Source of the DNA: Kaistella palustris DSM 21579
GTDB taxonomy: Bacteria; Bacteroidota; Bacteroidia; Flavobacteriales; Weeksellaceae
Assembly (NCBI RefSeq): GCF_000422265.1
Contig: NZ_AULL01000017.1
Span: 186,001-250,000, forward strand
Length of the DNA stretch: 64,000 nucleotides
Reading direction: 5' to 3'
Each line of letters starts with the position of its first letter. The first letter of the stretch is position 1. Below the pieces are notes generated by a model. That model was not told the origin of the DNA. It worked only from the letters and a program-made list of their open reading frames with translations, and did no database searches. Positions 51,327-54,390 of this stretch are shown here, one piece after another. Position numbers and translations under genes: made by a program.

Positions 51327-52922
51327 CTAGAACTCGAATTCATCGTCATCATCCAGATCATTCATTGATGAGCCGGATAGGTTCTGCTTGTTTGGCAGAT
51401 CAAAAGCGGCACCCGGATCAATGGTGGTCTTTATTTTCTCAAAACCTGTCGGCGTATCGAGTTGCCCGAAATTGGAATCCTGATAACCCGAGCCGTACTG
51501 ATTCCCAAAAAGATCCAGATCCGCAAACTTGGCGATATTTTTGAAGAAGGACATCCGTACATCAGCAGTGGCACCGTTCCGGTGTTTGGCGATGATGAGT
51601 TCCGCCTGATTTTCGGTAGAACTTTCGGCGCCGTCTTCATCATTATCCCAGTGCGTGATCTTATAGTATTCCGGACGGAAGATGAACGAAACAATATCCG
51701 CATCCTGCTCGATTGCTCCGGATTCCCGAAGGTCAGACAGCATCGGTCTTTTGCCGGGCCTTGTCTCCACACTCCGCGAAAGCTGCGAAAGAGCGATCAC
51801 AGGCACATTCAGTTCTTTGGCGATTGCTTTCAGGGAACGCGAGATCGTAGCGATCTCCTGCTCCCGGTTGCCCGCACCTCCTTTGCCGGAGTTTGCAGTC
51901 ATCAGCTGCAGGTAATCGACCATGATGATCTTTACACCATGCTGCATCACAAGTCGCCGGCACTTTGCGCGGAAATCAAATACCGAGAGCGACGGCGTTT
52001 CATCGATGAAGAGCGGTGCGTTTTCCAGCGCCGAAACATTGGAGAAAAGCCTTTGCCATTCCTCGTCACTCATTTGGCCTTTGCGCAGTTTCTCAGAAGA
52101 AATCCCGGTTTCCGATGCGATCATACGTGTGATCAACTGCACCGAAGCCATTTCCAGCGAGAACAGCGCCAAGGGGACTTTGTGTTCTACCGCGATATTT
52201 CTTGCCATAGAAAGCAGAAAGGCAGTTTTACCCATCGCGGGACGTGCCGCAATAATGATGAGGTCGGAGTTTTGCCAACCACCGGTTTCCTTATCAATAT
52301 CCCGGAATCCCGATGGAATCCCCGAAATCCCTTCTTTGTCCTTTAATGATTTAATGGTTTCTATCGCCTGCTTTACCAATGTATTTGCAGTATCAAAACC
52401 TTTTTTAATGGTTCCATTTGTAATCTCAAAAAAAGACTGTTCCGCTTTGTCGAGCAGTTCGAAAACATCGGTGGATTCCTTGTAGGAACTGTCGATCACA
52501 TTGGCTGAAACATTGATCAGGCTGCGCAGAATGAATTTCTCCAGGATCACACGCACATGATATTCAATATGTGCACTGGAGGAAACGCCCATGGTAAGAT
52601 CGATGATGTAATGGTCGCCACCGGCAAAACCCAACTTTTCGGTTTTCTTCAGTTCCTGGATCACGGTCATCAGATCGACAGGATGGTTTTCCTCAAAAAG
52701 CTTTACGATCGCGCGGAAGATCTCCTGGTGGCGCGGGTCATAAAATACATCTGCCGTAAGCAGGTCGATGGAATAATCCAGACCTTTCTTGTCGATCAAA
52801 AAAGTTCCGATCACCAGTTTTTCAAAATCAACTGCATTTGGCGGCATTTTGCCATCGGAAATCGATAATTCCCTGGCAAAATTTCCGTGAATGAGAGATG
52901 ATAAAGATTCCTTTTGAGTCAT
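51327..52922 (-). CDS. dnaB: Replicative DNA helicase DnaB
   Basis: A 531-residue hexameric helicase that unwinds the replication fork. The N-terminal DnaB domain (about 22-125: PPNAVDFEKLVIGTFL, FYDPRHQEIF, YHVRVILEKF) is joined to a RecA-like core with Walker A ARPAMGKTAFLLS, Walker B MVDYLQLMTA and ALSQLSRSVETRPGKRPMLSDLRESG split across 355-385. No intein is present. The C-terminal tail (about 475-531) is acidic and species-specific. A TATCTTTG box ends four bases before the ATG, so the transcript is leaderless. rnhA follows. Confidence 0.95.
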   Translation of the reverse strand: MTQKESLSSLIHGNFARELSISDGKMPPNAVDFEKLVIGTFLIDKKGLDYSIDLLTADVFYDPRHQEIFRAIVKLFEENHPVDLMTVIQELKKTEKLGFAGGDHYIIDLTMGVSSSAHIEYHVRVILEKFILRSLINVSANVIDSSYKESTDVFELLDKAEQSFFEITNGTIKKGFDTANTLVKQAIETIKSLKDKEGISGIPSGFRDIDKETGGWQNSDLIIIAARPAMGKTAFLLSMARNIAVEHKVPLALFSLEMASVQLITRMIASETGISSEKLRKGQMSDEEWQRLFSNVSALENAPLFIDETPSLSVFDFRAKCRRLVMQHGVKIIMVDYLQLMTANSGKGGAGNREQEIATISRSLKAIAKELNVPVIALSQLSRSVETRPGKRPMLSDLRESGAIEQDADIVSFIFRPEYYKITHWDNDEDGAESSTENQAELIIAKHRNGATADVRMSFFKNIAKFADLDLFGNQYGSGYQDSNFGQLDTPTGFEKIKTTIDPGAAFDLPNKQNLSGSSMNDLDDDDEFEF

Positions 52923-52926
52923 GGGG

Positions 52927-52934
52927 CAAAGATA
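52927..52934 (-). promoter_or_regulatory. Promoter box giving a leaderless dnaB mRNA
   Basis: TATCTTTG, four bases (CCCC), then the ATG at 52922. Confidence 0.6.
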
Positions 52935-53024
52935 GTTTTTTTTAAAAGTTAAAGGAACTTATTAATCAACACCGCGCCGTGGTTTTAGTTTAATAACGTA
53001 ATAATCAACCGGTTGTTTTGTTGA

Positions 53025-53145
53025 TAAGTTTGAAGGGGGCGGAGAAACTGAAACCGTTCTTTAGCCCGGATGGCAATGGAGCCCAAAGGGCGGAGTGTAC
53101 AGCCGGCCGTGACCTGCGCAGACAAACAGCTTTATCTGGCTCCCA
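53025..53145 (+). ncRNA. Candidate structured RNA element (Flavo-1-like or dispersed repeat)
   Basis: A TAAGTTTG promoter box (53025-53032) is followed by a GC-rich, noncoding block in an otherwise AT-rich gap. AGCC (53063-53066) and GAT (53069-53071) can pair with ATC (53134-53136) and GGCT (53138-53141), closing a domain. Inside lies a GCCC-AAA-GGGC hairpin (53081-53091), and GGAGCC (53078-53083) is also complementary to GGCTCC (53138-53143), which would be an alternative fold. The AGCCCGGATGG opening resembles noncoding elements I recall being repeated in Chryseobacterium genomes; identity with the Flavo-1 RNA motif is a guess. No protein is evident on either strand. Confidence 0.4.
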
Positions 53146-53151
53146 AAAAAA

Positions 53152-54390
53152 TCAATAGTTCATTTTGCGCAGTTTCGGTACTTTGGTTGCGACCAGAACT
53201 GCAATGAGCACAGTCATACTTCCGCCGAAAACTACAGAACGAACCACGCCCAGCAGTTTTGCAGCAAGACCGCTCTCGAACTGTCCCATTTCGTTACTCG
53301 ACATGATGAAGATCGAATTCACACTAAGCACCCGGCCGCGGATAAAATCCGGCGTTTTTAACTGCACGATCGTGCCGCGGATCACCACCGAAATTCCATC
53401 GAGCATACCACTGAAAACCAACAGGATAAATGATAGCCAGTACAGTTTTGAAAGGCCGAAACCGATGATGCACAGACCAAATCCGGCCACGGCTACAAGC
53501 AGTAATTTGCCCTGGTTTTTCTTTAATGGCACAAAAGCGAGCGTGATGATGATGCACATGGAACCGATATCCGAGGCGGCATTCAGTAGACCGAAACCTT
53601 CGGCGCCCACTTTTAGAATATCTGTGGCAAACACGGGGATCATGGCCACGGCACCGCCGAAAAGCACCGCAAACATATCGAGACAGAGTGCGCCCAGGAT
53701 TTCCTTGGTTTTGTAAATGTAGGCAAGACCTTCGCGCATACTTTGCATGACACCAACTTCGCCCTTTACATTTTCCGTTGGATGCTTTTTCAGAAACCAG
53801 AAGAAAACAGAGGACAAAATCATAAGTCCCACTACCACCATGATGGTTCCTGAAATGTCTATCCAGTGAATCAGAAAACCACCGATCGCGTGACCGCAGA
53901 CCGAGGCGGTAAGAAAAGTAGCCTGGTTTAAGGTGATCGCATTGGGCAATTCTTCGCGCGTCACGATTTTAGGAATCATCGAGGGGATGATTGGTCCAAT
54001 AAAAGCACGGCAGAAACCTGTGAAAAAGATGACACCATAAATAAAATAGGAAATTTGCAGGTTGCTGAAATGCAGGAGTTTATGACCGAATAAGGCCGGG
54101 ATCAGCAGCAGGCTGATGAGTATAACGTAGGCGTAGTTGCAGATGAGCAGGAGCTTTTTCTTTTCGGAATTGTCGATGACATGCCCAGCATAAAGTGCTG
54201 TAGATACGGCAGGAATCACTTCCGACAGACCGATGAGCCCGATGGCGAAGGGATCTTTGGTCAGCTGGTAGATCCACCAGCCCATGAGCGTGGCGAGCAT
54301 CCGGAAGGATAAAACGAGGAAAAACCGGCCGGTCATTAAATTTCGAAATTCGGGGATACGAAGCGTCTGGACGGGTTTCAGTGAAATCAT
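53152..54390 (-). CDS. MFS transporter
   Basis: A 412-residue protein with twelve predicted TM helices. Its N-terminus RIPEFRNLMTGRFFLVLSFRM and the loop SGMLDGISVVIRGTIVQLKTPDFIRGRVLSVN match the enterobactin-exporter (EntS)-like group of the major facilitator superfamily (MFS_3). The substrate is unknown. It is transcribed from a TACTTTTG box four bases before the ATG (leaderless) and ends eight bases short of the structured element at 53145. Confidence 0.85.
   Translation of the reverse strand: MISLKPVQTLRIPEFRNLMTGRFFLVLSFRMLATLMGWWIYQLTKDPFAIGLIGLSEVIPAVSTALYAGHVIDNSEKKKLLLICNYAYVILISLLLIPALFGHKLLHFSNLQISYFIYGVIFFTGFCRAFIGPIIPSMIPKIVTREELPNAITLNQATFLTASVCGHAIGGFLIHWIDISGTIMVVVGLMILSSVFFWFLKKHPTENVKGEVGVMQSMREGLAYIYKTKEILGALCLDMFAVLFGGAVAMIPVFATDILKVGAEGFGLLNAASDIGSMCIIITLAFVPLKKNQGKLLLVAVAGFGLCIIGFGLSKLYWLSFILLVFSGMLDGISVVIRGTIVQLKTPDFIRGRVLSVNSIFIMSSNEMGQFESGLAAKLLGVVRSVVFGGSMTVLIAVLVATKVPKLRKMNY

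Follow-up and report, generated by a model that had tools for sequence, protein, structure and literature searches.

What is the structured element that separates dnaB from an MFS transporter gene in this Kaistella genome? Within the window (the whole 64,000-nucleotide stretch of DNA that was analyzed), positions 53025 to 53145 are flanked by dnaB (51327 to 52922, minus strand) and by the transporter gene (53152 to 54390, minus strand). The initial annotation, made from the sequence alone, described a folded RNA with its own promoter and possibly two states, lying antisense to both neighbors, and suggested a lineage-wide repeat or a Flavo-1-type element. The closest named relatives of the MFS protein come from Kaistella, with identities of up to 90%. 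Three short open reading frames of 45 to 46 amino acids run across the site. Gene contexts here and below come from a crude open reading frame caller (at least 80 amino acids) used without annotation, and context counts vary by a few between passes.

Flavo-1 is a folded repeat found at many places in the genomes of flavobacteria and related bacteria. A permissive Rfam scan of positions 52900 to 53300 placed Flavo-1 (RF01705) at 53059 to 53113 on the plus strand (35.4 bits, E = 5.4e-6) as the sole Rfam match there up to an E value of 10, while a scan of the whole window at the gathering cut-off gave no match. The match, recovered by cmscan and by a scan of the organism's own genome, spans model positions 1 to 76 with the apical part mostly deleted, and its score lies under the RF01705 gathering cut-off of 42 bits. 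Of 18 relatives matched at this site, 14 clear that cut-off. The dnaB-site copy is best described as a divergent homolog, orthologous to passing copies, rather than as a formal Rfam hit. Its own genome contains at least 37 Flavo-1 matches, at least 20 of them above the cut-off, among which the dnaB-site copy ranks 30th (150 of 710 candidates scored). Two traits of the class, a Bacteroidetes host and repetition within the genome, are both present, and the suggestion of a lineage-wide repeat or Flavo-1-type element was borne out by the sole Rfam match, the copies within the genome, and the passing relatives at the same site; the model search and the search for further copies that had been proposed with it both returned matches. 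All copy numbers are lower bounds, as the first 15 candidates (wide search) or the first 150 were scored per genome. At least 44 of 296 genomes drawn from the phylum carry a match (at least 36 above the cut-off), matches number from at least 36 to at least 47 in each of five same-family genomes, and at least 92 and at least 99 in two genomes of another genus in the same order (g3, which we take to be Flavobacterium), with none among the candidates scored in 14 control genomes. The element is almost certainly a divergent copy of the Flavo-1 repeat, inherited at its site; its core is conserved, and in some cases the copy has decayed or disappeared.

Taken alone, the sequence shows no better folding than its shuffled versions (z = 0.87 on the plus strand and 0.40 on the minus strand); the evidence for structure is comparative. 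Across 19 orthologs and with the outer helix included, 94.7% of cells are paired (84.4% when shuffled), 28 cells have changed on both sides (6.8 when shuffled), and the covariation score is 0.379 (0.165 when shuffled), a signal that is lost when partners are slid. The compensatory change that the initial annotation had proposed looking for is strong. The fold in its "folded RNA" is real by this measure; it may be adopted by RNA or by single-stranded DNA. Read by eye, the dnaB-site copy makes each of the 11 pairs of the model, one of them T-G, and its internal loops (GCA/GTA and GGA/GGA) and an A-G mismatch are of the Flavo-1 type. Among 152 standard copies the first internal loop is GNA/GNA in 149, and the second is GNA/GNA in 78, GGC/AYA in 50, and something else in 24. 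The predicted GCCC-AAA-GGGC hairpin is present at 53081 to 53091 (plus strand), where sequence and Rfam alignment identify it as a strongly shortened Flavo-1 apical helix; most orthologs have longer, different apical helices. Two dnaB-site copies, L062 and L063, have very similar upstream flanks but differ in their apical helices, as though the whole tip had been exchanged at once.

Pairing of the ends, AGCC at 53063 to 53066 with GGCT at 53138 to 53141 (both plus strand), also stood, on pairing and ortholog alignment, and forms an outer helix, P1, whose 5′ strand is unpaired in the Rfam model. Its AGC/GCT pairs are formed in 91% of cells across the 19 orthologs, with a single cell changed on both sides. 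The additional GAT/ATC pairing fell outside the covarying structure, and its GAT belongs to the core. In a set of 112 copies, weak conservation extends about 20 nucleotides upstream of the model start, and 78 copies carry a 3′ motif, GCYCC-(U)AAAA, the remaining 34 departing from the search pattern. Conservation in the 78 fades about 12 nucleotides past the first base of GCYCC; 53 are of a long form, in which an insert separates the core from P1, and 25 of a short form, an end that was also seen by eye in 16 of the first 20 g3 copies. P1 reaches at least 4 bp in 21 of 26 copies with a GCC-type 3′ end, a set that includes some orthologous copies, and none of 5,000 permutations scored as high. 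New for Flavo-1 are P1 and the 3′ end past the Rfam model, together with the promoter, orientation, wobble, and transposase results given below; these points bear on the family more than on the dnaB-site copy. At the dnaB site the 3′ boundary is CCC-AAAAAAA (53142 to 53151, plus strand), whose A-run touches the stop codon of the transporter gene (53152 to 53154, minus strand). Across the 19 orthologs the two halves of the core have mean pairwise identities of 0.81 and 0.75, and the GCTCC-AAAA end has 0.71. The dnaB promoter region reaches 0.94 and two upstream boxes 0.87 each, and the spacers, the insert, and the apical part lie between 0.36 and 0.51; the core is nearly as conserved as the neighboring regulatory boxes.

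Inheritance at the site was followed through a dnaB search that returned 36 same-genus genomes, from which the 30 best-matching loci were taken. Flavo-1 occupies the same place in the same orientation at 19 of the 30 (own included), 14 times above the cut-off; the two weakest matches have E values of 0.005 and 0.009, and three matched copies (L071, L073, L075) look decayed by eye. Among the 11 sites without a match, one (L064) holds an apparent remnant, again by eye, and 10 are clear absences, with gene order kept in five and another arrangement beside dnaB in five. On a dnaB tree with a midpoint root and 12 of 29 inner branches weak, Flavo-1 states cluster (8 changes for four labels versus 14.6 when shuffled; 6 changes for intact presence alone), a pattern that fits, and does not show, a single gain early on, followed by loss and decay. 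In two Elizabethkingia loci dnaB lies next to the MFS gene and Flavo-1 is absent. A model (R1) built from 16 dnaB-site orthologs matched 10 of 80 loci fetched by the MFS gene, and nine of the 10 came from the 20 loci that had dnaB within reach; some of these genomes are sources of R1, and the search therefore identifies carriers rather than providing an independent test. Positional inheritance extends to other copies. When 46 of the 47 copies in the relative G326 were compared with the 37 in the own genome, 14 of the 37 had both flanking genes and their orientation in common with a G326 copy and 4 more agreed on one flank; among copies sharing neighbors otherwise, three pairs were inverted and three were in other arrangements.

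Promoters in Bacteroidetes follow the rule TAnnTTTG. The promoter box initially assigned to the element, TAAGTTTG (53025 to 53032), did not hold up: TAnnTTTG occurs there in the own genome only (1 of 19 orthologs), the window contains 70 occurrences where 61 are expected, and the box is the end of a conserved block, TGTTGATAAGT (53019 to 53029; identity 0.87 in 19 orthologs), which we take to resemble a DnaA box. Nor did a recurrent promoter of this type appear in the 80 nucleotides upstream of 112 copies, where TAnnTTTG is found six times on the element strand (about four expected from base composition), scattered, and 10 times on the other strand. The 80 nucleotides downstream of the same copies contain it 14 times on the element strand and twice on the other. 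The promoter of a small RNA (sRNA) gene was rejected on the lack of a fixed-place upstream TAnnTTTG, the one promoter motif sought. Rfam types Flavo-1 as "Gene; sRNA," and a table in the founding paper rates it as probably RNA, probably not cis-regulatory, and probably not a switch (PMC2864571). Passages of a Flavobacterium psychrophilum transcriptome study place Flavo-1 matches in either sense, many of them outside transcribed regions (PMC9723704), which together with the upstream result and the poor conservation of TAAGTTTG makes a free-standing sRNA gene improbable. Flavo-1 is listed, with no function given in that listing, in a further paper (PMC9029176), and our search of the literature on Flavo-1/RF01705 found no function.

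A second conserved block, TTAATCAACA (52962 to 52971; identity 0.87), is inverted relative to TGTTGATAAGT. The inverted DnaA-box-like pair lies upstream of dnaB across the genus, partly where Flavo-1 is absent, and TGTTGATAAGT is readable by eye in several genomes without Flavo-1; control of dnaB by DnaA through these blocks is possible. Four nucleotides before the dnaB ATG, the box TATCTTTG (52927 to 52934, minus strand; identity 0.94) is the likely −7 box of a dnaB promoter and would leave the dnaB mRNA almost leaderless. The position between dnaB and the MFS gene might suggest a riboswitch or leader for one of them. The core lies about 125 bp further upstream than TATCTTTG, however, so that the likely dnaB promoter sits between Flavo-1 and dnaB; other copies adjoin varied genes; and Flavo-1 (plus strand) is, as initially stated, antisense to both dnaB and the MFS gene (minus strand). 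We consider a leader function very improbable. The two-state proposal fared no better, as the competing GGAGCC and GGCTCC sequences are both present in only 1 of 19 orthologs, that of the own genome, and Flavo-1 is probably not a switch.

The antisense placement is a property of the family. In 143 copies from five genomes (37 own, 46 from G326, 35 from G257, 23 from G068, and 2 from G206, those from relatives other than G326 being picked among the best-scoring), 80 are antisense to both neighbors and 26 sense to both (P = 1.4e-7, with copies treated as independent though some are orthologous), while 22 have divergent and 15 have convergent genes on their two sides. In copies whose right-hand neighbor is convergent, the median distance from the model end to the stop codon of that neighbor is 23 to 88 nucleotides in the four larger genome sets. 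Both patterns favor an element acting at the RNA level, in which the transcribed Flavo-1 strand folds, ends or destabilizes an antisense transcript, and shields the 3′ end of the convergent gene; the excess of G-T over A-C in core pairs (11 versus 1) is in line with it as well. Against it, the 3′ end is A-rich and not U-rich, no replacement terminator is visible by eye at dnaB sites without Flavo-1, and wobbles are very few, and we regard an RNA-level role as possible but doubtful. An intrinsic terminator was rejected because the A-rich end has no U-run, with the exception of one orthologous site in three relatives (L083, L097, and L110). There the Flavo-1 3′ end lies inside a GGAGCAAC...GTTGCTCC-type hairpin, and a T-rich run after the hairpin in L083 and L097 gives an apparent terminator.

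Orientation was also compared with replication. In G326, with an origin backed by GC skew, 34 of the 46 listed copies (of 47) face against the fork. The corresponding counts are 24 of 39 in G281 (39 of 40 matches listed) and 39 of 65 in G302, each alone not significant and both based on origins estimated via dnaB position and rounded genome lengths. The pooled 97 of 150 may simply follow gene orientation. In G206, Flavo-1 orientations (at least 41 matches, by eye) fall into four long alternating chromosome blocks, which are incompletely explained by the fork directions that five 16S genes imply. None of the 46 listed copies in G326 lies between 1.05 and 1.55 Mb, the 0.5 Mb around the likely terminus.

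Wobble pairs bear on whether RNA or DNA folds. In 152 distinct standard copies (37 with shifted or broken register excluded), 1,499 of 1,520 core cells are Watson-Crick, 11 are G-T, 1 is A-C, and 9 are other. The sole control, tRNA stems from 50 of 54 distinct tRNAs in the fetched loci (anticodon stem at best fit), has 55 G-T and 4 A-C in 850 cells, and G-T is about nine times rarer in the Flavo-1 core (0.7% versus 6.5%). The core ratio of G-T to A-C, 11 to 1, is the same as in tRNAs (Fisher P = 1.0), and this ratio, together with the G-A loops, points to the Flavo-1 strand as the one that folds. Isolated mismatches in the apical helix have no wobble preference (26 G-T and 32 A-C, versus 55 and 4 in tRNA). 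Over all copies, those of shifted register included, two counts gave 36 G-T with 28 A-C and 33 G-T with 19 A-C. The rare wobbles and the missing apical preference are unlike an RNA helix, which is suggestive but not proof. Two points count against folded DNA: the core prefers G-T over A-C as a folded RNA does, though folded single-stranded DNA may do likewise, and short helices beside G-A loops may forbid wobbles in RNA too.

A repeat this abundant could also be mobile. A miniature, largely selfish element, spread as single-stranded DNA by some enzyme and with a present pattern that is residual, would match the dozens of scattered copies, the hairpin form, and the differing apical helices of L062 and L063 despite similar upstream flanks. 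Yet Flavo-1 was found at none of 18 Y1-transposase match loci searched with flanks of about 1.5 kb (3 own and 15 in four relatives; the 15 include two that overlap, two with internal stop codons, and two scoring under the Pfam cut-off), and mobilization as a REP by a RAYT was not supported within these flanks, as copies do not flank a transposase gene in either set. No neighbor gene family recurs beside Flavo-1 past shared loci and two weak similarities, a single copy used as query found nothing in a plasmid set and a 24-nucleotide match to one phage, and the core is constrained at its inherited site. A mobile element is accordingly a rather improbable explanation of the present copies. Two Y1-transposase genes of the own genome (L045 and L046) sit amid palindromes of their own (GCCACTTCGTGGC with CCCAATG, and GCGGGCTAAAGCCCGC), which by eye are unlike Flavo-1.

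With somewhat less than even confidence, we favor a protein-bound folded DNA site over a promoter-driven sRNA or a dnaB leader, because of the sole Rfam match, the copies in the own genome, the inherited sites, the covariation, the lack of a recurrent upstream promoter, the likely dnaB promoter box so close to the dnaB ATG, the rare wobbles, and the antisense bias. Placed just downstream of a stop codon and mostly antisense, the Flavo-1 strand would fold when single-stranded into P1, a core of short Watson-Crick helices with purine-rich internal loops between them, and an apical helix that can be replaced; the folded form would be a putative structural DNA site, REP-like but without the tie to a RAYT transposase. 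The comparisons show the fold, its covariation, the inheritance of position, the orientation bias, and the lack of a recurrent upstream promoter, and from there we infer folding of DNA instead of RNA and binding by a protein; to our knowledge, no Flavo-1 binding protein has been described. A more specific and only tentative version holds that Flavo-1 is not an RNA gene but a polar, mostly antisense DNA hairpin recognized as folded single-stranded DNA by an unknown Bacteroidetes protein, with the apical part rewritten and the core selected. We count against the protein-bound DNA site that Flavo-1 is dispensable at dnaB, where 11 of 30 sites have no match and three copies look decayed. The repeat is frequent: genomes of the genus carry dozens of copies, and two others from the same order carry about a hundred. 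It has been filed as an sRNA since 2010; if the DNA reading is true, it is a DNA-level element instead. The boundaries, the extra helix, the inherited dnaB test site, the orientation rule, and the scarcity of wobbles provided here make the choice between RNA and DNA directly testable.

Among known systems, REP/RAYT (TnpA-REP) elements are, like Flavo-1, intergenic imperfect hairpins in many copies, and a passage on the Bacteroidetes TnpA-REP subclass 2.6 describes flanking "atypical secondary structures" (PMC6006769). Flavo-1 differs in being absent within about 1.5 kb of the 18 Y1 match loci. Hairpins of the attC-like and IS200/IS605 types may be comparable as folded single strands with polarity, though no association of Flavo-1 with a Y1 transposase was found. 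From RF01705 itself the dnaB-site copy departs in its score below gathering and its apical helix of 4 bp. Three parts go beyond the pairs or the length of that model: P1, the GCYCC-(U)AAAA end, and the insert that separates P1 from the core. The dnaB-site copy shares with RF01705 the Bacteroidetes host, the UAGCC sequence, the three-pair helix, the A-G mismatch, the purine-rich internal loops, and the variable apical helix.
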